Source: Blepharisma japonicum (taxonomy: Eukaryota; Ciliophora; Heterotrichea; Heterotrichida; Blepharismidae). From it: a stretch of 64,000 bases of DNA. Shown one piece after another: positions 2,661-53,524 of this stretch; the stretch's first letter is position 1; every line of letters begins with the position of its first letter. The notes below the pieces were generated by a model. The model was not told where the DNA came from. It made no database searches and worked only from the letters and a program-made list of their open reading frames with translations. The stretch lies in contig CATKHK010000006.1 of the NCBI GenBank assembly GCA_949751835.1, forward strand, positions 558,001 through 622,000, read 5' to 3'. Position numbers and translations under genes: made by a program.

Positions 2661-5600
2661 ATGGAATCACATTCTAAAATCCAAGCTGAACTTATCCATC
2701 TGATCGGCGAATATGTAGCCCTACGCTTCACAGTTCCCGAAGTTACTTCCTCCACCGAGGTAGAAGGAGATGAGCTTTATGCAATGTTCGCAGTTGACAA
2801 AAGTGGCTCAATGAGTGGGTCTCCAATGAACGACGCCAAAGGTGCAGCTGAAAGCTTGACTACTAAATTCAGGAAAATGGACATCCCAGTCGCTATTTAT
2901 CCTTTTGATAGTCGAGCCAAAGAATTCTGCTCAGACGTAGTTGGATATGACACTATCGTTGAGAATCTCCAGAAGCTAAAAGCAGGTGGTGGGACAATCT
3001 TCCAAAACGTGATGGAAATGATGGTTAAGAAAATCAGAGAACAACATTTAAAAAATATTTTTGTTGTTTGGCTTACAGACGGCCAAGATAACAATGGACT
3101 TGAATCGTTGATTCCGATAATGGATGCTCACAAGAAAGAATATGAAGACCAAGGCGTTTCTATTTCAATCCAATGCATTGGGTTTTCTTCTGAGCATGAC
3201 GCTACACTCTTAACGAAACTCTCCACAAGTGGAACGAGACCTGGAACTTTTCAATATGTCCCTGAAGGAGGAAGAATTCCAGTGGCAGTTAATAATGTGT
3301 ATAATTTAGCTTTTGAGTCAACTACTTGGGCAAGATTCATAGCTAGCGAAGGGAAAAACTATAAAGTGTCAGTAGAAAAAGTGGAAGGAAAAGACGAATT
3401 GAGAGCATTGGTATATGTTTCAGAAAATGACCTTGAAGATTGTAAGGTAGAGCTGCATAAAGGATCAGCAGTATCTGAATTTGAAGTGGAGCTAAACAGA
3501 TCAGAAAGCAAAGGACTTGAAGACCTTGTATTTTTAGCCACTGCATTTATTTCTTCAAAAGTTATGCAAGCCTTAGAAAAAGGAATTGAAGGCGCTGGAC
3601 AGAGGCTTGCAGAAATGGCTCCACTTATTGAAGAAACTGATAGAAGGGTCGAAAATTTGTTGGAGCAGTCAAGAAGGTTGAGGCCTTATAAGCAAAAACA
3701 GCTGCAGCCTTATTTTAACGCTGCTAAAGACTTGACAGCTTTCTTTTTCCAAATTACCAAAACTTTAGGCGGCGGAGAAATTTCCAATGAAGATTTCGCT
3801 AAAATAAACGGTTTAGCAAATGCATTATTCCTTAAAAGAAATCTTGAAAGAAAAATCGCTAAAGAGTCTGGAGAAGGGTTATCAGCGCTTCAACTTGGAG
3901 AAGAAGAAATTGATAGATTATCGCAAGACCTTAAAATTGAAGAAATAAGAAGCGCACATGAAAGCCAAGCCCAAGAGCTTGGAGTTTGTTCTATTTCTCA
4001 TAAAAATTGAATTGATTGCATATCCACTGGAGACTGCTTGTGCATCACTTTCCAAGTAGAAAGGCCTCAAAATTTAATGGGTAATCCTTACGAAACTAAA
4101 GTTACAAAAATAAATGCGACCATGCTTTCGCATGACAGTTTCTTAAACTCCAACCTTTTTGAAACTAAAGCAGGACAAATCATCCAAGGCCCAAGAAATT
4201 ATCAGCATGGAAAAGAGCCAGTTTTGGCTTCACAGCTTGTAGATGGGCTTTTTGATGAATATATTACTGGCTTGATGCCAATTTTCCTCACAAAAGAGCA
4301 CTGGCAGTTCGCAAGACTCAGACTTAAACAGATGCTTGCATATGCAATCAGTGTCGATGTCCTAGACTGCAATGAAAACCAAATCAAAGTTTTCCCATTC
4401 TTAATCATGGCTAGAGCTCTTTCTGAGTCCGACAAGTATTCCCAATTAATTTGCAACCATATAGTTGATACTTGTCAACAAGTTTATTTAGAAAATAAAG
4501 ACTCAATAATTCCAGATATCCATGCTAAGATTTTGGAATATATCACAAACCCTAGCCTTCGCTTAGCGAATTCTATTGTTGATAATAGCGTCATTTTATG
4601 CCAGCTACACTTCGCGAACTTAGCGGGAGACCTTCAAGAATACAGAGGAGTAGTCCCATATATCTTTGAAGAAGAAGTTAGACGCTCATTTAAACATCAT
4701 GAAGACTTGAAATTCAATGATCTTTGTCTCAAAGTTCTAGGGATAGACATGCAACCTTATTTTGAGCCGATTAGAACTGCACTTATGAGCGGCGAAGCCT
4801 CATACGCAGATAAGTTCAGAGTCGTGAAACAAGGTGGCAAGCCAGAAGATGTCAAAAAAGAAGAGAAAGGAGCCGTTGAAATAACTGAGCAGCAAATTGA
4901 AACTCCCCAAGGAATCCAAACATTAGGAGAATATGCAACTAACACATATAATTCCATATTAGAAGCATTCACTCCAGGTGAAAGTTTAGGAAAACTTGGT
5001 AGGATTCTTAAGCTGTTCGGCTATGAACCAAACTTGGAAAGTTTAGGCCTTCTTACAAATGAGCAAAAATTAGCTTTCATGATTCAATGCATTGGCCATA
5101 AGAAAGATACTGACCGAACTGAAGCTATTCAATCTGGAAAATTCTGCGATCCATTTAATGCTCAAGCTGCTCGCGATTGGGTGCTCCAAACTTACAAATC
5201 CACCATTGAAAAAGAAGTCCTAGCTTATAAGTCTCAGCTTATGAACCAAATCCAAGGCAAAGAGTCAGAAAAAAGAGCAGCTATTTTCGCAATGAGTGAA
5301 GACCTAGAAGATGCTGCAGGCTGCGTATATGGAATGACACAAGGAAGCTCAGGATTCCCAATGTTCATTAAAGCACTTAAGCAGCCAAACATCCCTCATA
5401 TCATTGAAAAAGTAAAAATGATCACTTTGGGACATTTTGAAGGAGTCAAGCTCATTTTGGACGAAATTCCTGGCACAATCGATTTTGTGCAATGGAAACC
5501 GACTAAGAAAACTGTTCATGAGATTTGGAAAGTGCACAAAGATGCAGGGACGAAAGAGCAGTGGCAAGAAGCATTCCCTCATAAGTTTGACTATTTTGAT

Positions 5601-5858
5601 CATATTTACTTGAGAATGCAAGGAGTTTTTGTACCTTATAGCAAGCCAAAGAAAAACGTAACTGATCAGAGGCATTGGGAAGGAAAAGACAGGACTAAGA
5701 GATCTCCAAGGCCAGCTGGAAGCGGCAGAGGTGCTAGAGGCGGCAGAGGTGCTAGAGGCGGTAGAGGTGGTAGAGGAGGCAGAGGTGGTAGAGCTGCACC
5801 TAGAGGAGGAAGAGGTGGCAGAGGTGGAAGAGGAAGAGGCTTTAGAGGAAGCCCTTAA
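2661..5858 (+). CDS. VWA-domain protein with C-terminal RGG tail (1065 aa)
   Basis: A single frame from the ATG at 2661 to the TAA at 5856-5858, crossing one TGA (4008-4010) as Trp. Residues about 37-225 form a von Willebrand factor A domain with the metal-binding DKSGS motif starting at D46 and a later LTDGQD strand. The middle (about 450-1010) is largely helical and not recognised. Residues about 1020-1063 are a run of RGG/RG repeats, which in other proteins bind RNA and are arginine-methylated. There is no signal peptide or membrane span, so it is probably intracellular. Inference: an RNA- or RNP-associated scaffold using a MIDAS-type protein contact. The VWA plus RGG pairing is unusual. 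No introns. Confidence 0.8.
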
Positions 5859-5951
5859 ATAAATTAATCGGCTCTTCACAATCTTTTTTCATCATTTTTT
5901 AAATTATTATCTAAACTAATCATATTAACGATATTATCCTATTACGCTAAT

Positions 5952-7699: not shown

Positions 7700-8097
7700 C
7701 CTAGCAAATTATATTTACCATTTATTCTCTTTAGTTCAAATGAAGTAGAAGAAGAGAGCAGTCACAAAAGTGATGGCATAAAGAAGGAAACGAAATGAGG
7801 AGTTATCGGTAAGGAAAATTAAAAAAGTTACTGATAATTTTTTAATAGAGAGGATATTGAGAATTTTTGTTATATTATTTATAAAACTATTAAATGCTTT
7901 ATGCATGGTTTAGACAGTGCTAAACCTTTGTCTGAATAGAAAAAATTAATTTATCATTTATATGAGTAATAATTTAAATATTTATGGAGAAAAAGTTAGA
8001 TAGTTTAAAATTGCACCACAAAAATTTTATAGGTGAATGCCTAAATGAATTCAAAAAGCTGATTATAATAGTTTATTAAAGTATCATTATTATATAA
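7700..8097. other. Intergenic between PNUTS-like gene and HSF
   Basis: These 398 AT-rich bases hold the 5' flank of the PNUTS-like gene and the 3' flank of the HSF gene, both on the minus strand. No open frame, repeat or RNA gene is supported. Confidence 0.6.
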
Positions 8098-8940
8098 TTA
8101 TGAACTAGTATCTAACAGAAAATCTAAATTCTCCTCCCCAAACTCCTCCATGTCCTCGTAATTAAAAAATTCGTCAACTTCTAAATCGTCTCTTTTATAG
8201 CTTCCGTCATTTGAGCTGGTTTTACTATTTTTTCCTTCGTCCATGCTATGTGAGCCTAAGGAAAGATCCATACTTCCATCGCTAATTTTTTGTCTTTTTT
8301 CTGGACTTCCTGGGATGTGAGTTATAGGTAAATTATTGTCTCTCATAAAAAGCTGGCTTGGAAGCTCTTGGCCATTAGATTGTATATACGTGGCCATCAT
8401 CACTAGAACTTGCTCGATTCCTCTCATTTTTTCCTTAGTCTCCCAGAACTGTGACGCAAGCACACGATTCTGTTCAGTCAATTCAGAAACTTTTTCTTCA
8501 AGTCTCTGAATTTCAGTTTCTGACGTTTGAGATCTTCTGTGGAGCTGGTATAATTTTTGCAATAAAGGTGATATTTCGGCTTTACTGAACGTTGATCGCT
8601 GCTGCACAGGCCAATTTGTCTCAGAGTTTTTCCTATGGATTTCCTTGAGGAGATCAGGTCTTCCTCTCAAAAAGAGAGGGTGCTTGAAAGCATGGTCTTG
8701 TCCTGCAACTCGGCACTTGTGGAAGTCATACATATTCAGCTGACGTACAAAACTTGCAAGGTTGTTGTGTTTGAAGTACCTGGGGAGGACTTTCTCGCTG
8801 AACTCATTCACGTTTTTGATGGCGAAGGCTGTCCCATCCTCAGTTCAAGAGACTAGTTCGCCTGACTCTTCTTGCTCAAGCATGTCATATGTCTTTTTTA
8901 AGAAGGATGCGGGTATTGATGCTGAAGACTTCTTTTTCAT
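8098..8940 (-). CDS. HSF: Heat shock transcription factor (280 aa)
   Basis: ATG at 8940, TAA at 8098-8100, no intron. Residues about 10-100 are the HSF winged-helix DNA-binding domain, including SWTEDGTAF (the conserved Trp is a TGA at 8845-8847), the recognition-helix region LASFVRQLNMYDFHK and a FLRGRPDLL segment. Residues about 115-175 carry hydrophobic heptads expected to trimerise. The C-terminus is acidic with bulky residues (FFNYEDMEEF), like an activation region. Family knowledge: HSF trimers bind inverted nGAAn elements and switch on chaperone genes. It faces VPS26 across a 494-bp divergent intergenic region. Confidence 0.92.
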
Positions 8941-19312: not shown

Positions 19313-20881
19313 ATGGCAGCAAAAATTCTCTGGGCTTCTCAAACCGGCAATTGTGAAGAGATTTCTCGGATAATCTACGAAGAAAGTGCTGAAAAAAGAA
19401 TTCCCTGCGAAAGATACTGCCTCCAAGAGCTCGGGACCTCTTTTAACATTTCCCAAAAAGATGTAATAGTTATAGTTGTCTCAAGCACTGGCGATGGTGA
19501 GCTTCCAGACAACGGTTTAAAATTCTATCGCTGGATCAAGCAACAAGAAGGTACTATTTTTTCTCACGTAAAATATACACTTCTAGGCCTTGGGGATTCA
19601 AATTACAGCACTTTCCAAGGAGGACCTAATACAATTGAACATCATATGAAAAAGCTTGGAGCGACTGAGTTTTATGAAAGAGGAGTGGTAGACGAACAAT
19701 TAGGGATAGAACAGACTGTTGATGCTTGGATTGATGGTCTTTGGGAACCCTTAAAAAAACAAGTAGAAGAGTTATCGAAAGCAGGAAGCGGAGAACAAGT
19801 CAGCCAAGCTATTGAAGATATGCCAAGCATATGGGGAAGAATTTTGGAATATCGAGTACTGACTGAAGAAAATGCTGCGAAAAAAGTCATTGAGATTAGG
19901 ATTACTACTGAAGGGAAAAACTATATACCAGGAACAGCTTTATTTATGTATCCTCAAAATCCTGATGAAAAAGTGACTGAAATGATTACAAAATTAGGAT
20001 TAGAACCGACTCAGTCTATTCTTGATAAATCCCACATATCAAAATCAGTGAGTCATAGATTCCAAACCCCTATATCTATTTTTGATTTTTTTAAGAGGTT
20101 TGTAGATTTTCAATCAGCAATTAAAACACGATGTGCAGTTTATTTAACTTCAATACTTTATAATCCAACAGAGAAAGAAGGATTAACCCATCACATTGAC
20201 CAGTCAAAAATTACGATGCCAGATGAGTTCACTTTTGAAAATATTATAAATAAGTATCATTCTTGGGATGTCCAATCTTTAGATTCATTATTGGATGTCA
20301 TTCCAATACTGAGCCCAAGGAATTATTCAATATCATCGTCACCTACTACATCTCCAGGCTCAATTACGATTGCATTTTCGGTTATGGGGTTATGCACTAG
20401 GTACTTAGAACATGCAGCTTTGAATGATATCAATGTAGAGTATTCTCTTCCAAATGAGCCTGGAGTGTTTTGGGAAGGTATAAAAGCATCACCAAGACCT
20501 ATTATGATCTGTACTGGAACAGGAATTTCTCCTTTCAGAGGAATCCTGGAACATTTGATTTTAAATAACCCAAAGCCTGTTTGGCTTATATATGGTTGCA
20601 GAAATTCACAAAAAAATACTCCACAGAAGAACTTTGACCATGTTTACCAAGAAGACATTAACGGAGCAATTAGAGTACTCGGAGGAAAACTGAGCGTTGC
20701 TAATTCCAGAGCTGGAAATGGACCAAAATACATTCAAGATATCATAAGAAATGAAGCCAACCAAATTCGAGAGTGGGGAAACTCAGCTGTTTTATGTGGA
20801 AATTTTGATTCAAAAGATCTAAAAACAAAACTTCAAGCAATAAATGAAGATTTCCAAGTCTTCTCCGAAATATGGGAATAG
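19313..20881 (+). CDS. MTRR: Methionine synthase reductase-like diflavin reductase (522 aa)
   Basis: Uninterrupted frame without introns. Residues 1 to about 155 are a flavodoxin (FMN) domain: WASQTGNCEEI phosphate loop, SSTGDGELPDN, and LLGLGDSNYSTF followed by a GG...LGATEFY segment and WIDGLWEPL. These resemble methionine synthase reductase more than NDOR1 or cytochrome P450 reductase. An FAD-binding module follows with the PRNYSISSSP motif (near 335-345), then the NADPH domain with CTGTGISPFRG and the C-terminal FSEIWE, whose Trp would stack on FAD. It is shorter than the human enzyme (698 aa), mostly through a reduced linker. Role by family: NADPH to FAD to FMN electron transfer that reactivates cobalamin-dependent methionine synthase. 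Its 3' end lies in a tandem duplication. Confidence 0.82.
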   Translation: MAAKILWASQTGNCEEISRIIYEESAEKRIPCERYCLQELGTSFNISQKDVIVIVVSSTGDGELPDNGLKFYRWIKQQEGTIFSHVKYTLLGLGDSNYSTFQGGPNTIEHHMKKLGATEFYERGVVDEQLGIEQTVDAWIDGLWEPLKKQVEELSKAGSGEQVSQAIEDMPSIWGRILEYRVLTEENAAKKVIEIRITTEGKNYIPGTALFMYPQNPDEKVTEMITKLGLEPTQSILDKSHISKSVSHRFQTPISIFDFFKRFVDFQSAIKTRCAVYLTSILYNPTEKEGLTHHIDQSKITMPDEFTFENIINKYHSWDVQSLDSLLDVIPILSPRNYSISSSPTTSPGSITIAFSVMGLCTRYLEHAALNDINVEYSLPNEPGVFWEGIKASPRPIMICTGTGISPFRGILEHLILNNPKPVWLIYGCRNSQKNTPQKNFDHVYQEDINGAIRVLGGKLSVANSRAGNGPKYIQDIIRNEANQIREWGNSAVLCGNFDSKDLKTKLQAINEDFQVFSEIWE

Positions 20882-20883
20882 CA

Positions 20884-21011
20884 TAATAATTTATTAATTA
20901 AGATATTGGTGTATTATAAGACCCACATTTTGGGCATTTCATTCCAATTATATAATTATGACTTCGTTTTTTCTTACTAAAGCTTACTTCAAGCAATCAT
21001 TGCACAGAATA
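20884..21011 (-). pseudogene. Decayed 3' end of RCHY1 (duplication remnant)
   Basis: The reverse strand closely matches the last exon, the 15-nt intron and the preceding codons of the intact RCHY1 gene at 21707-21830: the CCCAAAATGTGGG zinc-ribbon segment, the intron-like GTAAGCTTTAGTAAG and CAATGATTGCTTGAAG. The intron 3' splice site has changed from CAG to AAG, and upstream coding sequence is absent. It lies directly after the MTRR stop, where the original convergent RCHY1 end would have been. Confidence 0.8.
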
Positions 21012-21245: not shown

Positions 21246-21630
21246 TAAAAGCATCGCCAAGACCTATTATGATCTGTACTGGAACAGGAATTTCTCCTTT
21301 CAGAGGAATCCTGGAACATTTGATTTTAAATGACCATAACCTGATTGGCTTATATATGGTTGCAGAAATACCCCACAGAAGAGCTTTGAAAATGTTTACC
21401 AAGAAGACATTAACGGAGCAATTAGAGTACTCGGAGGAAAACTGAGCGTTGCTAATTCCAGAGTTGGAAATGAACCAAATACATTAAAGATATCATAAAA
21501 AATGAAGCCAATCAAATTCGAGAGTGGGGAAACTCAGCTGTTTTATGTGGAAATTTCGTTTAAAGACCTAAAAATAAAACTCCAAGCGATAAATGAAGAT
21601 TTTCAAGTCTTTTCCGAGATATGGGAATAG
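21246..21630 (+). pseudogene. Decayed 3' end of MTRR (duplication remnant)
   Basis: Near-identical to 20482-20881 of the intact MTRR gene, from the ASPRPIMICTGTG codons to the final EIWE and stop. Small deletions (for example where the intact gene reads TTCACAAAAAAATAC) shift the frame. There is no 5' part, so it cannot encode a reductase. Confidence 0.85.
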
Positions 21631-21725
21631 CATGATAATTTATTAATTTAAGATCTTTATGTATTATAAGACCCGAGATATGGGAATAGCATGATAATTT
21701 ATTAATTTAAGATCTTGATGTATTA
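21625..21725. repeat. Tandem repeat of about 50 bp
   Basis: Two adjacent copies of a unit containing GAGATATGGGAATAGCATGA, TTTATTAATTTAAGATCTT and GTATTATAAGACCC. It duplicates the junction between the MTRR pseudogene end and the RCHY1 stop. It accounts for the length difference between the two copies of the larger duplication. Confidence 0.8.
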
Positions 21726-22465
21726 TAAGACCCACAGTTTGGGCATTTCATCCCAATTATATGAAACTTGACTTCGTTTTTTCTGACTAAAGCTTACTTC
21801 AAGCAATCATTGCACAGAATAGTACACCAAACGTTTTCGTATTCTGGTGGCATTGGAGTCGAAGCGACTTCTTGGTCTAATTCTTGATAAAAATCTGAAA
21901 AATCAGCTATAGACTTACAGCATATTGGGCACGTATATCGATGATGCTCCATCATGTCCCTCAAACAAGAATTATGTATAAAATGTCCACACCTAATGGG
22001 AATAACTGATTCCCTACTAGTAAACATGTCTTCTTGGCATACAGCACAATTAGATTTCAAAACACCTGGTATACAGACGTGAGAATCTCGCAAAGCAATG
22101 CTAAGGCACGCTTCACAAGTGTCACAGTGGAAAAAATTTTCTCTAGGACCTACACGGCATATTCCGCATTTATCACAGTGATAAATTTGTTTTGACAAAT
22201 CGTGGTCAAATAAGTGGCAGATCCCACAGAAGTAGTTGCCTAAACAGTTCCCGCAGACTTCGCAGTACTGAGCAATGCCTTGTATATGTTGGCATTGACG
22301 ACATCTAACTGTATTCACATCAGCCCTGACCATTTTGTGCCTTTTTGTCAAATCTTTTTCTTCTTCAAACTTAACCCGATCATGACAATATCTGCATGCG
22401 AAAAACTCTTCACAGCATAAGGATAAAAGGTCGCATCCTCTGTCGTAGTGGGTGCAAGGCTCCAT
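21707..22465 (-). CDS. RCHY1: RCHY1/Pirh2 CHY-zinc-finger RING E3 ubiquitin ligase (247 aa)
   Basis: ATG at 22465. A 15-nt intron (21783-21797) has to be spliced to reach the C-terminal zinc ribbon (HIIGMKCPNCGSYNT) and the TAA at 21707-21709; without splicing a stop falls right after CNDCLK. The N-terminus is a CHY zinc finger (CTHYDRGC, CCEEFFACRYCHD), followed by a CTCHY-type zinc region and a RING finger (CAVCQEDMF...CGHFIHNSCLRDMM...CPICCK). Length and order match Pirh2 (human 261 aa), which ubiquitinates p53 and other proteins; ciliate targets are unknown. It converges on MTRR across duplicated remnants and is divergent from eIF5A, 294 bp away. Confidence 0.93.
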
Positions 22466-39347: not shown

Positions 39348-40679
39348 ATGAAAACATCAACCGATGGATTTCATAATGAAAGCAAAATAATAAAAATTAA
39401 TTATTCTATCAAAATCATGGAATCCAAAAATTCAAGAAAATCAGAACAAAGCAGTCTCCATTTCTCTAAATCTTCAAATATACTAAACGTCAAAAGGAAA
39501 AGTTTAGGGGATCTTCCACAAAAAAATCCACAAAAAGCAGTTCTTGTGACTTCAGGCACCTCATCTCCTCAACCTAGTTTTTTTCTGCATGAAAAATCCC
39601 CAGAAAAATCAAAATTAAGAGCAATTCGGTCAAGTTCTGCATCTCGGCAAACAAAATTAAATGTTTCCAAAACTGAGTCCAAACGTTTAATATTAAAACC
39701 TAATATACCAAGTGGAATAACTTCTCCTCAAAATGATAGCATGACTGGCTTACTCAACTTAAGTAGTGCAATTTCAAGAAGTAATACAAATTCAAGGTTA
39801 AAAGTGCCAATATTTCCCAATTCTTTGGCAAGCGAAATAAATCCATCGAAATTAATGCAGAAATTTAAAATTCAAGATGCTAAATCTGATGCTGAAGCTT
39901 TTGATATAAAACTATCTCAGGATCTTGCAGCTTGCAAAGGCTCAGAAGATCTAAAGTTTATGGCTTATCAAAAATTATTTGATGAAATCATATTAAATGA
40001 TAAAGAATTCAGCAAATTGCTCATGAAAATTAAAAGTGCTTATGAAAAGATGATTTTCAAATGCGATTATGATAACTCAAAAGACATAAAACGAGAAAAT
40101 ATAGAGCTCACCTTAAAACTTGAAGAAAAAAACGCTTTAATTAGCAGTCTTGAAAGAGAAAAATCAGAAATTTGGCAGGAGTTGAAAAAACTCAAAAAAG
40201 AATTAAACGCATTAAAATATGAGGAAAGAGGACCTTCAAGATTAAGCCAAAATAAAGATATTTCTGCATTAGAAAAAGAAAATAGGGATCTACTAAAGCG
40301 AGAAAAAAAATTCCTCAAACTTTTTTCGATTTTAAAATCTAAAGGATATCCTATTGATGAAGGATTAGCCTTTCTGAACTCGAAAAGACATAAGCAGCTT
40401 TCAGATTTTCTTAATAAATCAAAAGAAAGCATTAATGAAACTGTATATAGCAATCGTCAAGAAGACTCAGAAGGAAGCAGCACAGCTTGTGAAAAGAAAT
40501 CAAACAGAATTAAGCCTCCACATTTAAAGCGTCCGAATCTAAGCTCCACAACTCCAGTTCCAAAACTTTCTTCATTTAACTCGACCCAAATGAGTTTTCA
40601 AGAAGAATTTATGTCAAATTATGATAATTTTTCCGAATCTTGGCGTGGACAAATTCCCAAAAAAGACATCCCTTTATAA
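39348..40679 (+). CDS. Coiled-coil protein, unknown function (443 aa)
   Basis: ATG at 39348, with later in-frame ATG codons possible. The first half is Ser/Pro/Lys-rich and disordered; residues about 230-330 form a coiled coil, ending in FLKLFSILKSKGYPIDE and a basic Ser-rich tail. No family recognised; cytoskeletal or centriolar proteins often look like this. Its 3' end (from about 40500) is present again as a decayed copy at about 42045-42195. Confidence 0.75.
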   Translation: MKTSTDGFHNESKIIKINYSIKIMESKNSRKSEQSSLHFSKSSNILNVKRKSLGDLPQKNPQKAVLVTSGTSSPQPSFFLHEKSPEKSKLRAIRSSSASRQTKLNVSKTESKRLILKPNIPSGITSPQNDSMTGLLNLSSAISRSNTNSRLKVPIFPNSLASEINPSKLMQKFKIQDAKSDAEAFDIKLSQDLAACKGSEDLKFMAYQKLFDEIILNDKEFSKLLMKIKSAYEKMIFKCDYDNSKDIKRENIELTLKLEEKNALISSLEREKSEIWQELKKLKKELNALKYEERGPSRLSQNKDISALEKENRDLLKREKKFLKLFSILKSKGYPIDEGLAFLNSKRHKQLSDFLNKSKESINETVYSNRQEDSEGSSTACEKKSNRIKPPHLKRPNLSSTTPVPKLSSFNSTQMSFQEEFMSNYDNFSESWRGQIPKKDIPL

Positions 40680-40711
40680 CTAATATAATTTTTCTAATAA
40701 ATTTTTAATAA

Positions 40712-41281
40712 ATGCCTCGAGACTCCAAAGGCAAGAACAAAAAATGGTCAAAACATAAAGGAAAGGACTACGGAAGATCAAAACTTGAAAAGCTCCAAGA
40801 ACTTGCTGCTAAAAAAGGAGTAGAAGTCTGGGAAATCGACCCTAATGAAATTTCTTCTGGTGATGAGTCAGAAGAAGAGGAAGGGATAAACGAGGTTGAA
40901 GAGCACGAAGAAGAGGAAGAAACCAAAACTCCTCAAGAAGAAAATAAAAAAGAAGAACAAGAAGACAGTGATGAAGAAGAAGAAAAATATGAAGGAGAAG
41001 TTGTGGTTGGGCATCAAGGATTAATGGAAATATCAAACCCGAACAGAGCAAGAGGAATTCCGAAATCTTGGGACCCGCCACAAGAAAGCGGAAATAGAAG
41101 AGGAGGGTACAAAGGACAAGAAGAAGGTAAAAGTAAGGGACCAAAAGTTAGTAAATCTGATAAAGAAAGGCTTGAAGAAATAAGAGCAAGAAGGGACGCA
41201 GCATCAAGACAAAGAGAAGAAAATAAGAAAAAGCAAGAAAAACTTAAAGAAGAAGCTGCGAACAAGTTTAAGAAAAAATAA
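40712..41281 (+). CDS. PDAP1: PDAP1 (28-kDa acid/heat-stable phosphoprotein) homologue (189 aa)
   Basis: Starts 32 bases after the preceding stop. A basic N-terminus rich in Lys is followed by an acidic stretch (about 48-95), then GLMEISNPNRARG, the most conserved PDAP1 motif, and a charged helical C-terminus (ERLEEIRARRDAASRQREE). The overall layout equals PDAP1/HASPP28. In animals PDAP1 binds PDGF-A and acts as an RNA-binding or translation-related phosphoprotein; the role in ciliates is unknown. A truncated duplicate lies at 42341-42634. Confidence 0.85.
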   Translation: MPRDSKGKNKKWSKHKGKDYGRSKLEKLQELAAKKGVEVWEIDPNEISSGDESEEEEGINEVEEHEEEEETKTPQEENKKEEQEDSDEEEEKYEGEVVVGHQGLMEISNPNRARGIPKSWDPPQESGNRRGGYKGQEEGKSKGPKVSKSDKERLEEIRARRDAASRQREENKKKQEKLKEEAANKFKKK

Positions 41282-41339
41282 ATAACCAGAGATAATTGGT
41301 GTTTAAGAGAAAGATAATAAGGGTTTTGGCTATAAATAA

Positions 41340-41648
41340 ATGGCTAGCTCAATAGGTAAAGCTTTTGCTGCCGACCCCAAGATTGAAAAAGATGATTTAA
41401 TGGACTACTTGCACTGGGTTAAACAAATCCTAGGCCTAGTTTTCGGGATTATTGCTGGAAGCATGAAATATACAGGATTCCCAGTAATCATCATATTTGC
41501 AATTGCACTTAGTGCTGTATCCCTATTCTATGCATGGAAAATCATCAAAACCGAAGAAATTGAAGCATGGGACATTGTTTCTGAAGCATTTGGACCAGCA
41601 TTTTTCAGCTTTGTGCTTGCATGGATATTATCATACACATTCCTATAA
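41340..41648 (+). CDS. RAB5IF: RAB5IF-like ER membrane protein (102 aa)
   Basis: Short frame beginning 58 bases after PDAP1. It has LHWVKQILGLVFGIIAG and a central hydrophobic pair of helices, then ...AWDIVSEAFGPAFFSFVLAWILSYT. This is the Rab5-interacting/EMC6-related fold of RAB5IF (C20orf24/OPTI), a small three-span protein connected with respirasome assembly and multipass membrane protein insertion in animals. No TGA or intron. Confidence 0.8.
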   Translation: MASSIGKAFAADPKIEKDDLMDYLHWVKQILGLVFGIIAGSMKYTGFPVIIIFAIALSAVSLFYAWKIIKTEEIEAWDIVSEAFGPAFFSFVLAWILSYTFL

Positions 41649-41679
41649 TAATTTAGTTTATGCAATTCTTAGTAATTTA

Positions 41680-41745
41680 ATTCTGAAAATAGCTTTAGTC
41701 GTTCATAGTTACATTTAATATGCTATTTGGGTTACTTAAGAAAAT
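41680..41745 (-). pseudogene. Decayed 3' tip of calpain gene (duplication remnant)
   Basis: The stretch with TAGCTTTAGTCGTTCATAG and ACATTTAATATGCTATTTG aligns with 42885-42930 at the intact calpain 3' end. It sits just after RAB5IF, where the convergent calpain end would originally have lain. Confidence 0.6.
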
Positions 41746-42044
41746 TTCTTTTTCAGAAAAAGTATTGGCAAAAGCAATTTAAGACAAATTTAAAACAGAG
41801 AAATAACGAATAAATTGGCTTGCTGCAGAAAAAACAAAGTTTTGTAGGAGTTGCCAGGAAAAGTGAAATTTTGACACTAGAAAACAGAAAATTTATGAAA
41901 TTTGAAGTAAAGCAAAAAAGATGATTCAAATTTATTTTATGTGAATGTCACTAAAGAATATTCTAAAGTACTCTAACTCAAATGTCTGATTACTGATTAA
42001 TATAACCATAATTATAAATGAAATCCAAGCACATTTAAAACTTA

Positions 42045-42195
42045 AGTTTCAAAATTAAAGCCCCCAAATCTAACTTCAAACTCCGGTCCTAACTTTTTTG
42101 ATTTAACTCTATCCAAACTAGTTTCATGAAGAATTATAAAAAGTTTGCAAGTCTTGGTGTTTTCAAATTCCCAAAAAAGACTATATTTCAATTAA
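42045..42195 (+). pseudogene. Decayed 3' end of the coiled-coil gene
   Basis: Recognisable copy of 40505-40680 (AAAGCCCCCAAATCTAACTT, CAAATTCCCAAAAAAGAC), with many substitutions and small deletions that destroy the frame. Confidence 0.75.
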
Positions 42196-42289
42196 AATGA
42201 TCATGCCCAATTTTAAGCTACCGTTCCTCATTTTTCAAAAATCATTAGAATAAAGTTTAATATTAGTCTCCATGTATTTTATATAAATT

Positions 42290-42640
42290 TTCTAATAAAT
42301 TTTAATAAATCCCTCAAGAAAGAAAAGGAAAGAGCAAAAAATGGCTAAACATAAAGAAAAAATTCTCGAAATATCAAAACTTGAAAAACTTCAAGAGCTT
42401 GCGGCTAAGCAAGGTGTAGAAGGCTGGGAAATAGACCTTAATGAAATTTCTTCAGAAGATGAGTTAGAAGAAGAGGAAGGGATAAATGAGATTAAAGAGC
42501 ATGAAGGACAAGAAACCATAATTTTACAGGAGGAAAATAAAAATGAAGAGCTTGAAATTTTGAAAAGAAGAAGAGAAGAACTAAGTGCAATGCTAAAAGA
42601 TGTCGAAGAACAAGAAAAATACAAACCTTATTAATACGTT
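42290..42640 (+). pseudogene. Truncated PDAP1 duplicate
   Basis: The first 60 codons (from ATG 42341, KLEKLQELAAKQGVEGWEIDLNEIS) closely follow PDAP1, including its 5' flank. The start codon of the parent has become CTC-like sequence and the conserved GLMEISNPNR core is deleted. A 97-aa open frame remains (42341-42634) and could still be translated, but it lacks the PDAP1 motif. Confidence 0.75.
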
Positions 42641-42855
42641 TAATTAAAATATTAGTGCTTAAGAGAAAGATAATAAGAACTTTACCTACCCCATCCTTGA
42701 TGGAATTAAAAATAATTTCTGAAAAGTATATATTTAGAAAATATCCTAGACACTAGCATTGAAGCATATTGTAAACATTTCTGAAGCATTTTTGGCCAGT
42801 CTGCTTGAGCATGCGTAATTACATATTCCTATGACACTTAAATTTATGAAATTCT
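42640..42855 (+). pseudogene. Decayed RAB5IF duplicate
   Basis: The parental 5' flank (CTTAAGAGAAAGATAATAAG) and the C-terminal codons (ACATTTCTGAAGCATTTTTG, TTACATATTCCTATGA) are recognisable. The start codon and the central coding region are lost. Confidence 0.7.
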
Positions 42856-42867
42856 TATTAGTCTAAT

Positions 42868-45800
42868 TTAAGGTAATTCGCTAATAGTAGCTTTTGGATC
42901 ATCCACTGTCACATTTAATATATAGTTTCCATACCCTCTTTCTCCTTTATACATACTTGCACATACAATTGTAAAAGAATTTCCTTTATCAAGCGGGACC
43001 TCAGCGCTTACAACTTTTAAGTCAGTAGGGCATCCTGATGTTTTTAAAATATTTTTGCTAGGATCTTTTACTCGTTGATTTCCATAGAAAATCATAAATA
43101 TTATAGGGAGTTTTCCTTTAAACATATCAACGGCTTCTTTTTGAGTTAAGACTATAAATGCAGTGCATGGCTTAGAGACTTTTATGAGATATTGTGGATT
43201 ATCAGAAAATTCTACTTGTGGATTATCTTTGCAAGGAAGCCCTGCAGCTCTTTTTCCACTCCATGATCCTTCAATTTCGTTTAATTTGTTCCATTTCTTA
43301 TCATCAAAAATTCTGCAGATGTATAATGATTTATATTCCCACACAAAATCGTCTAAGCACATTCAGAAAATCCCATCATCTTTTTCTTCAAATTTAAGCT
43401 TGTCTTTGAATTTTTTGGTCCATTTAAAGCTGCTATCACTCCAGTCTCCACGCCATTCTGTGCCGAATTGTCCATGAGGGTTTTTTAAGTTGATAAGCCT
43501 TTCTCCATCGAGCTCAATTATATTTAATATTGCATAAGCATGACCCTGAACTATTCCATTTTCAGAAACAGCTAAATCGCCTTGAGGATTTTCTGGCGAC
43601 CCTGCGCCCATTAAATACCCATTTTCATAAAAGTTAAGCATTTTGCTCCACAAGGCGTCTGAGTTATTTTGGGCTGACTCTAAACGAATTTCTTCAGGTG
43701 CTCCTTTAGTGAGGTCTTCAAGAGCATAGTGAACCTTTCCAGCAGCAATGGAATCATAGGTGCCATATAATTTTGCATAAGCCTTTTCTAGCAGCATTGG
43801 CCATAGTTCAGTTCCAGAAACTGTTCTTGAAAAGGCTCATTCGCCTTGATCGTTAACTGGAAATATATCGTCAACAATAATATAAACTTCGTCACCGTTT
43901 CTATAAAATTTCATTATATATGCTCCACATTTTGGATCAGGCTTTTCTCCTTTAAAAATGTTTTCAACCCTATTTAGGCTTTCTTGTGAGGCATCTTTAG
44001 GTTTTTCACTCAAATTTACCCCTAAAACACAGAGAGCGCTTAAAAAGTAACAATCTCCTAAAGCACCTTGCTTAATGTCTTCTGGCGATACTCCACCTTC
44101 GTATAAAACGCATTCATCGCCAGCTCTTTTCCAGCCTGACACAAAATGGCTGCTTTTTTCTCCAAGCGATTTTTTATCTGCTGGGAATTGTTTATCAGTG
44201 AATTTTTCATGAGTCGCTCTAAATCTTTCAACGATTTTTTGATATTTTTCAGGGCTATCAACCATCTCATCAATAGGAATGTCTTGTCGATTTTGCTGTT
44301 CTTGCTTAGCTTTTTGTCGTTGTTCATGGATTTTTTTAGCTGTTTCCATACGTTTTAGCATAGCTTTTTTTTCGATTGATTCTCTTTTTTTGATTATTTT
44401 TCTTTCTTCAGCGAGCTCTACTTTATATTGCTCCTTTATGCTTTCAAATCTGATTCTTTGTATTGGGTTAAGTTTTTCAAGCTGCTCTTTGGCTCTTTGA
44501 TATTTTTCAAATATTGATCCTTTTGGTCCTAAGTTAACTTGAATCCCAAAGGCTTTAAGCTCTACAGCTTTTGCAGTAAACAAGCTATTTAAAAACATAA
44601 TCTCATTGCTTTTTGATGATATTGCTCCAGATAAAATTAATAATTGGAAATTGATCATTAACTCTATTTCCTGTAAATACTGCTTTTTAGCTCTTTTTTC
44701 TTCTTGATGAATTTCAGCATAAATATCTCTTAAATTTCCTAGTTCTCTTGAAGATGATCTCCATGCTTTATTTTCATCTTTTTTAGGAACTTCAAAAATC
44801 GTCCTTTGTCTTAAGGCTTGAGCCATATGGTTTAGGTGGTTTATTTTGTCTTTACTCTCGGCATAGGTGGCAAAATCTTCTATTCTGGAGACTCCTTTTT
44901 TCATTAAATAGTTTTCTTTAGCTTCAAGCCAAGCTTTTTTCATTGCTTTAGGATGGGTGGAAGGGTTCACATATTTATAAGCAGTCCCAAGTTGTACTGG
45001 AGAAATTCCAGTAATAAAAATAAATACTAATGCTATTAAAACTTCAGCCAAAGAGCCAATAGCTATGCCAGCGGAAACCGGATCAACCCAAATTATACAG
45101 ATAACTCCATATATCATGATAAGTCCAATAGTTCCACACATCATAAGTCCAAGCTCGTTATATTTGATTAATCTATCATTTTTAGTTTCATATTTGTATA
45201 TAGGGAAAATCCATGGTGAAAAAAATATCGGCTCTGTCCTCATACGACGAATTGAGGTAAATAGAGAAATTGATGAACAAATAAAAATAAAAGCTACACA
45301 AGTATAGTAAGATATTGTAAATCCTGCATAAATTCCAAGTCTTTCTGTGAGGTAAAGACCAACAGCTAAGCCAGTCCAAGATGCTAAAAATATAAAAATA
45401 ATTGATAAATATTTAATAATAGAGGTTTTCCACCAATTCTTGTATAAAAATTTGAAGAATCTGTAAATATGGTCTAGAAGGAGATGAAGGATGGTGAGAC
45501 CAAAAAATGCTATAGAAAATGAAGCCCCATATTTATATGTTCCATCAACAGCATATATAATCCCTGCTTGAAGTCCTAAAAATATAAGCATATTCAAATA
45601 TGAAAGTATTGCTCCGTAATCACCTTTATGCAATTTGCCTGTGAAAAATGCTTTGAAAAAATTGGTTTCTTTTTTTCATTCCCTCAGCATCTTTGGAGTT
45701 GATTCTCTTAATGTTTCGATATTGATCATTCCTGATTTAAGTTTCATTTCATCTCTTTTATCTAATGCCACTATATATGTTTTTTCAAGACTTTTTTCTT

Positions 45801-51135: not shown

Positions 51136-52251
51136 ATGAAAGCATTTCTTTGCTTTGGTTTAATTGGGCTTGTGCTCTCACAGGTCTCACTCCCAATTTT
51201 CTCAATCTACGACACTCCTGATGCTGCATATGCTCACTTCAAGAGACTTAAAGTCCGCGAGCAATTGCTTAAGAACTCCAATGTTCCTTTAACAAATTAT
51301 CTGGACGCCCAATATTATGGACCAGTTACAATTGGAACCCCACCTCAGAACTTTTTACTGACCTTCGATACAGGGTCCTCTGACATCTGGGTTCCTTCAA
51401 GTTCCTGCTATTCAACTACTTGCCATCTCCACAACCAATACAACCACAGCAAATCGACCACCTATGTAGCTAATGGCAAAAAAGTCGCTTTTGACTACGG
51501 ACAAGGGGAAGTTTCAGGATTCCTCTCAATGGATACTCTAACTTGGGGTGGCTACTCAGTTCCAAATGTCACTTTTGGAGAAATCACTTATATGCCTGGC
51601 TCTGAATGGGGTTCAGATAAAAATGACGGACTTCTTGGAATGGCTTGGCCTTCACTTGCCTGTGCTGAATGTACCCTTGGATTTTCAAAATTGTTTGGAA
51701 CAGGTGTTTTAGGGACTAATAACACTTTTGCGTTTTATTTGACCTCTGGAGACTTGCAAACTGGGAGTGTTTTGACATTAGGAGGATATGACTCAACCTT
51801 ATCAAAGAACGATTGGCATTGGCATGATTTAATATCAGAAACCTATTGGCTTATTAACCTTGACTACATCACTGTCGGGACATCAAAAATTGCAGTTTCA
51901 GGAATGAAAGGAATTTTGGACACCGGCACAACCCTTCTTGTAGGAGACCAAACCGTTGTGAACCAGATTCTTGCTAAAATTCCTACAGTAAAAGAAAACT
52001 GCTCAAATCTCAGCAAGCTTCCTAACGTGACCGTCACTATTGATGGAATTAATTACCTTTTGACTCCTCAAAATTACGTTTGGAAAGTCACTTCTGAAGG
52101 CCAAACTCAGTGCATTAATGGATGGCAAGCTGAAGATTTCTCTGGCAGCCCACTTGCTAACACCATCATTTTGGGAGACCTTTTCATCAGCACTTACTAT
52201 ACTCAGTTCGATATGGGAAATAAAAGACTAGGCTTTGCAACTGCAGTTTAA
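51136..52251 (+). CDS. Pepsin-like aspartyl protease, copy 1 (371 aa)
   Basis: Signal peptide (MKAFLCFGLIGLVLSQ), a propeptide of about 40 residues and a two-lobed A1 protease. Catalytic D78 is in FDTGSSDIWVPS and D262 in ILDTGTTLLVG; the flap Tyr is in DYGQGEVSG. Cys pairs and the C-terminal GNKRLGFATAV complete the fold, at the usual length for cathepsin D/E. It is likely secreted or delivered to food vacuoles or lysosomes. All Trp codons are TGG, and codon use is C-richer than in neighbouring genes, suggesting high expression. A tandem paralogue follows after 142 bases. Confidence 0.95.
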   Translation: MKAFLCFGLIGLVLSQVSLPIFSIYDTPDAAYAHFKRLKVREQLLKNSNVPLTNYLDAQYYGPVTIGTPPQNFLLTFDTGSSDIWVPSSSCYSTTCHLHNQYNHSKSTTYVANGKKVAFDYGQGEVSGFLSMDTLTWGGYSVPNVTFGEITYMPGSEWGSDKNDGLLGMAWPSLACAECTLGFSKLFGTGVLGTNNTFAFYLTSGDLQTGSVLTLGGYDSTLSKNDWHWHDLISETYWLINLDYITVGTSKIAVSGMKGILDTGTTLLVGDQTVVNQILAKIPTVKENCSNLSKLPNVTVTIDGINYLLTPQNYVWKVTSEGQTQCINGWQAEDFSGSPLANTIILGDLFISTYYTQFDMGNKRLGFATAV

Positions 52252-52393: not shown

Positions 52394-53524
52394 ATGAAAG
52401 CATTTCTCGCCTTCATTGTTATTGGAGCTGTTTTATCAGCTATAACGATTCCAGTTTACTCAGTCTATGATACTCCAGAGCTGGCATATTCCCACTTCAA
52501 AAAGATTCAAAGTTACAGCAAAAAATTCCTCCAAATGTCAGATGTTGCCCTTACCAATTTTGAAGATGCTCAATACTATGGATCACTCTTAATAGGAACT
52601 CCACCACAGAACTTCACTGTCCTTTTTGACTCAGGATCTTCAGATCTTTGGGTTCCTTCCATCTACTGCTATTCTTCTACCTGCCGCCTTCATCATACCT
52701 ATAATCATCAAAAATCAAGTAGCTATGTTGCCAATGGAAAAAAGGTTACTTTTGATTATGGCCAAGGCGGTGTTTCAGGATATCTTTCACAGGATACAGT
52801 GACTTGGGGAGGATATAAAATTCCAAACGTTACCTTTGCAGAATTAACCAATATGCCTGGATCTGAATGGGGTTCAGATAAGTTTGATGGGCTCTTAGGA
52901 ATGGCTTGGCAAAGTCTTGCTTGTAATGGCTGCTCTGTTGTTTTCCAAAACCTTTATGCTACTGGTGCTTTAGGGACAAATAACAGTTTTGCTTTCTATT
53001 TAACCAATGTTGACAATAAGGCTGGAAGCACTTTAACCTTGGGTGGATATGAGCCTAGCCTATCTCAAAATGATTGGGTTTGGCACAATTTGTTATCACA
53101 AACCTATTGGCAAATAAAACTCACAGGAATTTCAGTTAATGGAAAAGCTATCACTGGAACCAACATGAAAGCAATTGTTGACACAGGAACTTCCATTCTT
53201 GTAGGAGCTACTAATATTGTGGATCAAATCACTAAGGAAATCCCAGAAATTAAGACTGACTGTTCTAACATTAAATCACTTCCAAATGTCACAATTACAA
53301 TTGACTCTACCAACTATGTGCTTACACCCCAAAACTATGTCTGGAAAATCTTCCAAGACGGGATCTATGAATGCACTAGTGGATGGCAGGCTGCTGACTT
53401 CCCAAGCGAACTTGCTAATACTTTGATTTTAGGAGACCTCTTCATCAGCACTTATTATACTCAGTTCGATATGGGAAATAAAAGAGTAGGCTTTGCAACT
53501 GCAATTCAAAGCTCAAGCACTTAA
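52394..53524 (+). CDS. Pepsin-like aspartyl protease, copy 2 (376 aa)
   Basis: Tandem paralogue of the preceding gene, with the same signal peptide style (MKAFLAFIVIGAVLS) and clearly similar throughout. The first active-site motif is FDSGSSDLWVPS (D79), with Ser replacing Thr of the common DTG triplet; the second is IVDTGTSILVG (D263). DSG occurs in some active aspartyl proteases, so loss of activity is not implied. The C-terminus GNKRVGFATAIQSSST is extended by several residues. All Trp codons are TGG. Confidence 0.95.
   Translation: MKAFLAFIVIGAVLSAITIPVYSVYDTPELAYSHFKKIQSYSKKFLQMSDVALTNFEDAQYYGSLLIGTPPQNFTVLFDSGSSDLWVPSIYCYSSTCRLHHTYNHQKSSSYVANGKKVTFDYGQGGVSGYLSQDTVTWGGYKIPNVTFAELTNMPGSEWGSDKFDGLLGMAWQSLACNGCSVVFQNLYATGALGTNNSFAFYLTNVDNKAGSTLTLGGYEPSLSQNDWVWHNLLSQTYWQIKLTGISVNGKAITGTNMKAIVDTGTSILVGATNIVDQITKEIPEIKTDCSNIKSLPNVTITIDSTNYVLTPQNYVWKIFQDGIYECTSGWQAADFPSELANTLILGDLFISTYYTQFDMGNKRVGFATAIQSSST

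Follow-up and report, generated by a model that had tools for sequence, protein, structure and literature searches.

Spontaneous duplications in nematodes and flies often take in parts of genes, and becoming a pseudogene is the likelier fate of the copy, according to one study (PMC3857721). A partial duplicate can also be retained: HvARM1, derived from HvPUB15 in the Triticeae grasses, was kept as a new gene (PMC6092874). Among the matches listed in our literature search, none concerned such duplications in Blepharisma, a statement that applies to those matches and no wider. Here we describe a locus of Blepharisma japonicum within a window of 64,000 nucleotides (contig CATKHK010000006.1, positions 558,001 to 622,000; all positions below are counted within this window). 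An ordinary duplication appears to have left one unexpected and modestly interesting survivor there, a shortened copy of PDAP1 designated PDAP1b.

A four-part block present twice

The end of a coiled-coil gene, PDAP1, RAB5IF, and the antisense tip of a calpain gene occur twice in the window, collinear and on the same strand (Table 1). Self-BLAST of the window recovered three collinear pieces (E values of 6e-65, 1e-14, and 3e-8) with identities of 65 to 80%. Local alignment scores were compared with 200 dinucleotide shuffles per block, none of which (0/200) reached the score of the coiled-coil tail (z = 11.7), PDAP1 (z = 29.6), RAB5IF (z = 5.1 for the whole, 6.2 for the 3' part), or the calpain tip (z = 7.1 at the nucleotide level). 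Outside the block the flanks are unmatched, both upstream (z = 1.4, 21 of 200 shuffles equally good) and downstream (z = -0.5, 132 of 200). A sequence-only reading had placed the two copies at about 40500 to 41745 and 42045 to 42930; both sites were confirmed with refined limits, as was the similarity at the calpain tip and the RAB5IF remnant on which that reading turned.

Table 1. Features of the duplicated locus in window coordinates.
Feature	Position	Strand	Basis
Copy 1	~40487..41740	+	Local alignment with shuffles; self-BLAST
Copy 2	~42012..42940	+	Self-BLAST; local alignment with shuffles
Coiled-coil gene, intact, 443 aa	39348..40679	+	ORF under TGA=W
PDAP1a, intact, 189 aa	40712..41281	+	ORF
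RAB5IF (Pfam EMC6 / Rab5-interacting family), intact, 102 aa	41340..41648	+	Pfam EMC6 4.6e-14
Readable part of dead calpain tip, copy 1 (NSILNVTMND)	41698..41727	-	Nucleotide block z = 7.1
Spacer between copies	41746..42011	.	26% GC; genome search matches only itself
Dead coiled-coil gene tail, copy 2	42012..42181	+	7 frame-breaking gaps
PDAP1b, shortened paralog, 97 aa, probably functional	42341..42634	+	ORF; dN/dS; B. stoltei relative
Dead RAB5IF remnant, preceded by RAB5IF 5' flank (42651-42688)	42651..42834	+	15 frame-breaking gaps; z = 5.1; flank repeat D11
Membrane calpain gene, intact, 1585 aa	42868..47625	-	ORF; Pfam Peptidase_C2 1.2e-67

The block begins within the last ~190 bp of the coiled-coil gene, whose Pfam match to TSNAXIP1_N is weak and below the family cut-off, and ends within the last ~70 bp of the calpain gene; both genes crossing the breakpoints are open and intact once. 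Copy 1 keeps its three left genes and a dead calpain tip, as had been proposed. Its RAB5IF is 95% identical to Blepharisma stoltei P0012, and its calpain tip reads NSILNVTMND in antisense versus NYILNVTVDD in the intact calpain. As a protein alone this tip is weak (tblastn E of 0.45), so the case for it rests on the nucleotide block. Copy 2 had been described as a calpain end with decayed left genes, which is true of two of them: the coiled-coil tail and RAB5IF are broken, with differences by codon position of 9/11/13 and 19/19/13, respectively, but PDAP1b is open. With its frame broken and codon-position bias absent, the RAB5IF of copy 2 is a pseudogene.

The dead tips behind the proposed reciprocal decay are thus real, but the reciprocal pattern would need no special mechanism, because the breakpoints fall inside genes. 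The pattern is largely automatic: an in-place duplication ending inside two genes leaves each whole once, together with one dead tip, and in a gene-dense genome this is its expected trace.

The PDAP1 copies in two Blepharisma species

PDAP1a (P0001), for which a Pfam search reported no family, is 96% identical to B. stoltei P0005 and is named from the UniRef entry of that protein, which begins "Casein kinase substrate phosphoprotein PP2...". Two stretches mark the PDAP1/PP28 family, KGKxxKWSKH at the N terminus and GHQGLxEIxNPNR in the center. As read from the alignment, both are missing from PDAP1b, which lacks residues 1 to 11 of PDAP1 as well as its central GHQGL..NPNR stretch and keeps only a KHK/KYK remnant; its Pfam search yielded no family above the cut-off. 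The original start codon is gone, the open frame of 97 codons begins ~30 bp further downstream, and the alignment with PDAP1a contains three small gaps of 1 to 2 bases, including one close to the old start. From just past the coiled-coil stop to the end of the old PDAP1 start codon, 30 of 34 aligned bases are identical between the copies with one gap, a raw count in AT-rich sequence.

PDAP1b has a relative in B. stoltei, P0011, which is likewise 97 aa long and identical at 67 of 97 residues (69%) without a gap. Both begin with MAK, lack the middle part, and end in the same 15 residues, and PDAP1b does not show the broken frame of a pseudogene, its frame being open and equally long in B. stoltei. 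Under neutral drift to this level of identity, a stop arises in 90.4% of 1,000 simulations, indels not yet counted. The same-length, gap-free relative suggests that the duplication most likely predates the split from B. stoltei, where the entries for P0005, P0011, and P0012 all give 1,038,890 bp as the longest contig. A count of 19 shared changes is weakened as proof of this age, because 15 of the 19 sit in the tail, which aligns with PDAP1a only doubtfully. Over the first 72 residues, 4 changes are common to both species, 18 occur in one species only, and 6 positions have changed differently in both.

The dN/dS of PDAP1b versus PDAP1a is 0.152 (bootstrap, 0.05 to 0.38) over the best-kept 56 codons and 0.203 over 65 codons. 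In simulations with the omega of PDAP1a set at 0.1 and change split equally (12 synonymous changes simulated versus 14.5 observed), a neutral copy 2 gave a dN/dS of ≤0.152 in 18 of 1,000 runs and carried a stop in 741 of 1,000. With copy 2 at an omega of 0.5 or 0.3, the observed dN/dS was reached in 214 and 497 of 1,000 runs, so that only full neutrality of PDAP1b is disfavored. Dead blocks carry ~0.15 to 0.42 gaps per substitution, varying with gap cost, and the PDAP1 part 1 to 2 gaps per 26 to 27 substitutions. Codon-position bias was dropped as a sign of life: the third-position excess of PDAP1b is small (5/7/14), and a dead tail in a younger duplication (see below) is similarly skewed (4/7/12). 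Between species, PDAP1b differs at 30 of 97 residues versus 96% identity for PDAP1a, implying that constraint on PDAP1b is weak or that the protein is fast-changing.

The C-terminal tail of PDAP1b, AMLKDVEEQEKYKPY, is identical between the species at 15/15 residues versus 52/82 over the remainder (Fisher, 0.004, for a tail picked after looking; 0.07 when the longest run of identities was tested against shuffles). At the nucleotide level, the last ~30 residues are no more similar to the PDAP1a C terminus than shuffled sequence is (288 of 500 shuffles scored as well); at the protein level, 42 of 500 shuffles were as good in B. japonicum and 4 of 500 in B. stoltei. A genome search with PDAP1b gave four matches at E ≤10 among its best candidates, and none of the three nonself matches covers residues 80 to 97. 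Tentatively, PDAP1b might be a short paralog confined to Blepharisma whose role is new, joining the upstream region of PDAP1 and its N-terminal half, without the central motif, to an acquired tail.

Taken together, these results indicate that PDAP1b is probably alive, as a shortened paralog under weak constraint, and not a decayed copy. It seems unlikely that copy 2 retains no living left gene and that this frame stayed open by chance. The lost start and central motif, an identity low for close species, the lack of a Pfam family above the cut-off, and the few changes common to both species where PDAP1a is alignable would suit a dead gene, but frame and length are kept indel-free in two species though indels abound in the dead blocks, and the dN/dS of 0.15 to 0.20 and the shared 15-residue end argue the same way. 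It is more improbable still that the decayed parts are retained as a 3' untranslated region, terminator, or regulatory RNA of the adjoining genes: the coiled-coil and RAB5IF remnants are gap-rich without clear codon-position bias, and the near-identical run between the PDAP1 3' flanks (38 nt at 82%; 40/55 over the wider flank), which speaks for retention, would equally fit the end of a PDAP1b transcript.

The spacer and the origin of the second copy

The copies do not abut but are separated by ~266 bp matching neither of them, which is not expected for a simple abutting duplication. A genome search that skipped simple repeats and very common words found no second match to this spacer, and within the window there are only weak, AT-rich matches (best E of 1e-4 without the low-complexity filter). 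Its derivation as a decayed continuation of the calpain or coiled-coil gene is unsupported. A repeat or mobile element was likewise rejected, with no second match in that genome search and no exact inverted repeat of >9 bases. The sequence-only reading had also noted a second convergent-tip duplication nearby, and one indeed lies at 20481-21010/21246-21821. It is much younger, at 81.6% by BLAST including indels; its alignment rows mostly hold 84 to 94 identical positions per 100, with one row at 37 and an extra 60 bp in copy 2. Both convergent-tip duplications of the window carry a spacer (235 to 266 bp) for which the genome search gave no other match. Neither junction is clean, and the repair-associated origin put forward in the sequence-only reading is conjectural.

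These paired spacers would suit an origin of copy 2 by nearby duplicative insertion, for example by broken-end copying with filler, in place of an abutting tandem duplication, all the more as the younger pair is little diverged and its spacer is therefore unlikely to be a decayed copy. Such an origin is the less probable one: at L029 the copies of a duplication at 95.6% abut without a spacer, and the spacers here could be later insertions. It would also be compatible with what is proposed below for the subsequent fate of copy 2. The chance of an assembly artefact is negligible; nothing was found in its favor, the divergence of the copies makes it very unlikely, and the B. stoltei annotation holds the same-length relative of PDAP1b.

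We place a probability of about 0.72 on an in-place direct duplication before the species split that left dead tips, a dead RAB5IF, and a surviving PDAP1b. In a single event that preceded the B. stoltei split, a stretch of ~1.25 kb would have been copied in place without a change of direction, with the left breakpoint in the coiled-coil gene and the right one in the convergent calpain gene, so that each remained whole once and left one promoterless 3' tip, dead from the outset. The second RAB5IF, one of two genes fully enclosed, would then have decayed. The second PDAP1 would have lost its start codon and middle, restarted ~30 bp downstream, and survived as a 97-aa paralog, probably yielding a working protein under purifying selection weaker than that on PDAP1a.

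Local duplications in the genome and known parallels

A census of 15 hand-picked, nonrandom stretches (150 kb; contig ends and small contigs underrepresented; introns ignored and frames of <60 aa not called) yielded seven between-gene pairs in the same direction versus one short inverted pair (in L039; 105 columns, 65.7%, E of 6e-6). The seven do not include pairs confined to a single ORF, of which L032 had one and L034 five, or a pair in L042 whose members overlap. Self-matching inverted stretches numbered four: L033 had two, and L037 and L042 had one apiece. The window itself holds a small inverted pair at 21018-21073/21186-21239. Local same-direction duplication is thus common in this genome. 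The recurrence suggested earlier is borne out to that extent, but the convergent-tip architecture was seen in none of the seven pairs. With local duplications of many ages, the genome would allow their rate, size, and fate to be measured in a ciliate, and the locus illustrates how a gene that is probably alive may be misfiled when decay is judged by sequence only.

As in the nematode and fly duplications, parts of genes were duplicated here; that source gives rates, and none can be derived from the Blepharisma data (PMC3857721). Relative to the PDAP1/PP28 casein kinase substrate family (PMC7537392), PDAP1a is the likeness through its PP2...-named B. stoltei counterpart, and PDAP1b differs in the lost first residues and central motif and in a C-terminal tail of unsure origin. 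A further parallel is HvARM1 (PMC6092874). Its function was tested, whereas PDAP1b is known from its sequence, and the shortening of PDAP1b seems to be later than the copying of a full gene; in both, a shortened copy of the sort usually filed as a pseudogene has been kept across species.

Structure and decay of the duplicated block

Self-BLAST of the window returned three collinear pairs of same-strand pieces, and all four gene blocks, when aligned separately, scored above every one of 200 shuffles; in the same alignment and shuffle test, the flanks immediately beyond the block did not rise above the shuffled level. The repeat of the coiled-coil end, PDAP1, RAB5IF, and the calpain tip proposed in the sequence-only reading is thus confirmed, including the similarity at the calpain tip and RAB5IF, the two places named beforehand as its test, and the antisense calpain tip is present in copy 1. 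The repeat arose by an ordinary local duplication, probably before the split from Blepharisma stoltei.

Coordinates of duplicated and related features (window positions; L, position within a sampled stretch of the same assembly)
Feature	First copy or extent	Second copy	Orientation	Content
Self-BLAST piece 1	40492-40667	42016-42181	same strand	
Self-BLAST piece 2	40683-40986	42281-42577	same strand	
Self-BLAST piece 3	41559-41721	42758-42921	same strand	
Block limits	about 40487-41740	about 42012-42940		
Younger duplication	20481-21010	21246-21821	direct	flavoprotein gene end and convergent CHY/RING tip
Protease pair	51136-52251	52394-53524	tandem	aspartyl protease
L042 (G000:C24), first	1-1373	3821-5192	direct	
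L042 (G000:C24), second	5279-5881	7785-8397	direct	
L029 (G000:C1)	2675-5357		abutting copies	whole 393-aa gene
L026 pseudogene	4697-5008 (G000:C24:21196-21507)		minus strand	RAB5IF
L026 array	3890-4656			repeat units

The reciprocal pattern would require no special mechanism. In an in-place duplication, the left flank would stay joined to copy 1 and the right flank to copy 2, so that a gene spanning the left breakpoint would be whole with copy 1 only and one spanning the right breakpoint with copy 2 only; for a convergent gene pair, both surplus pieces would be promoterless 3' tips. The copy 1 calpain tip and the copy 2 coiled-coil tail would therefore have been dead from birth, and only what became of the inner genes, PDAP1 and RAB5IF, is informative.

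Fates of PDAP1 and RAB5IF

TGA is read as tryptophan in the reading frames of the window, which lies at C6:558001-622000 in an assembly of 45.2 Mb in 224 contigs. The description of B. stoltei in PMC9942806 gives a compact somatic genome (41 Mb, 66% AT) in which intergenic regions are short and UGA encodes tryptophan. The intact PDAP1a and RAB5IF of copy 1 are 96% and 95% identical to B. stoltei proteins, which most likely places the window in a Blepharisma closely related to that species. The decay ascribed to the left genes of copy 2 holds for the coiled-coil tail and for RAB5IF, which is dead (15 frame-breaking gaps; 19/19/13 differences by codon position), but probably not for PDAP1. PDAP1b (42341-42634) is an open frame of 97 codons starting ~30 bp inside the old start, with three gaps of 1-2 bases each relative to PDAP1a, and its dN/dS against PDAP1a is 0.152 over 56 codons (bootstrap 0.05-0.38) or 0.203 over 65 codons. 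Simulated neutral copies reached 0.152 in 18 of 1,000 runs and copies at omega 0.5 in 214 of 1,000; full neutrality is disfavored, and weak constraint remains compatible with the simulations. The B. stoltei protein P0011, also 97 aa, matches PDAP1b at 67/97 residues without gaps, and neutral frames drifting to this identity contained a stop in 90.4% of 1,000 simulations. Dead blocks carry about 0.15-0.42 indels per substitution, varying with gap cost. The codon-position skew of PDAP1b is small (5/7/14; 4/7/12 in a dead tail of the younger duplication), and this and the loss of the central motif both argue that constraint is weak or that the role has changed. Judged from sequence, PDAP1b is a probable living survivor of the duplication.

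PDAP1b and P0011 have in common their start, missing middle, length, and an identical 15-residue end, which points to a single origin before the species split. The listing of an equal-sized longest contig for P0011, P0005 (relative of PDAP1a), and P0012 (relative of RAB5IF) suggests that the three are neighbors in B. stoltei. The two PDAP1a and two PDAP1b proteins share 97 alignment columns: 46 are invariant, 19 hold a change present in both PDAP1b proteins, 8 hold one confined to PDAP1b here and 11 one confined to B. stoltei, 9 changed differently in the two PDAP1b proteins, and 4 differ between the PDAP1a proteins. However, 15 of the 19 shared changes fall in the tail, whose alignment to PDAP1a is unreliable; the first 72 residues hold 4 shared changes versus 18 in one species only, indicating that much PDAP1b protein change followed the split.

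For B. stoltei, two Rab5-interacting proteins came up: P0012 and, listed on a contig of another size, P0013; hence, no living counterpart of copy 2 RAB5IF was seen among the five proteins found. Elsewhere in the assembly, L026 holds a dispersed RAB5IF pseudogene, interrupted by frame breaks and stops, nearer P0013 (70%) than the window RAB5IF (62%), apparently a paralog lost here and kept in B. stoltei. Adjoining it, outside called frames, is an array with units of roughly 170-180 bp.

Recurrence, spacers, and junctions

A second convergent-tip case in the window, also claimed from sequence, was borne out as a direct duplication of two gene ends, one belonging to a sulfite-reductase-like flavoprotein gene and the other to a convergent CHY/RING zinc-finger gene (81.6% BLAST identity, indels included); a tandem repeat of about 60 bp is nested in its copy 2. 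Fifteen hand-picked 10-kb stretches were scanned for same-strand pairs within 6 kb (E <= 1e-5), leaving out repeats inside one ORF (L032, L034) and one overlapping L042 pair. Seven pairs, 56 to 96% identical, occurred in 6 of the 15 (one each in L029, L030, L033, L036, and L038; two in L042). In L042, one side of each duplication lacks a long frame, and one pair begins at the edge of the stretch. The sample contained one inverted pair (L039, 105 columns, 65.7%) and four self-matching inverted stretches; in the window, inverted matches (E <= 1e-3) comprised three stretches, each matching itself. The window also has a tandem protease pair, both copies open, with 68% DNA identity. Together with the window cases, the seven pairs show that local direct duplication is common in this genome. 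The suggested recurrence stands to that extent, but none of the seven pairs joins two convergent tips, a form seen twice, both times within the window.

The copies are separated by about 266 bp (26% GC) in the PDAP1 block and 235 bp (22% GC) in the younger duplication. A genome search found no second place for either spacer; without the low-complexity filter, weak AT-rich matches appeared inside the window (E to about 1e-4), and the younger spacer has an internal repeat of 56 bases. That this spacer is a decayed continuation is unlikely, making filler or a later insertion its likelier source; repair with filler is a possible duplication mechanism. The L029 duplication, 95.6% identical, shares at most a few bases at its junction by eye. 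This young case is useful for junction study: its copies abut, whereas both convergent-tip duplications are separated by a spacer.
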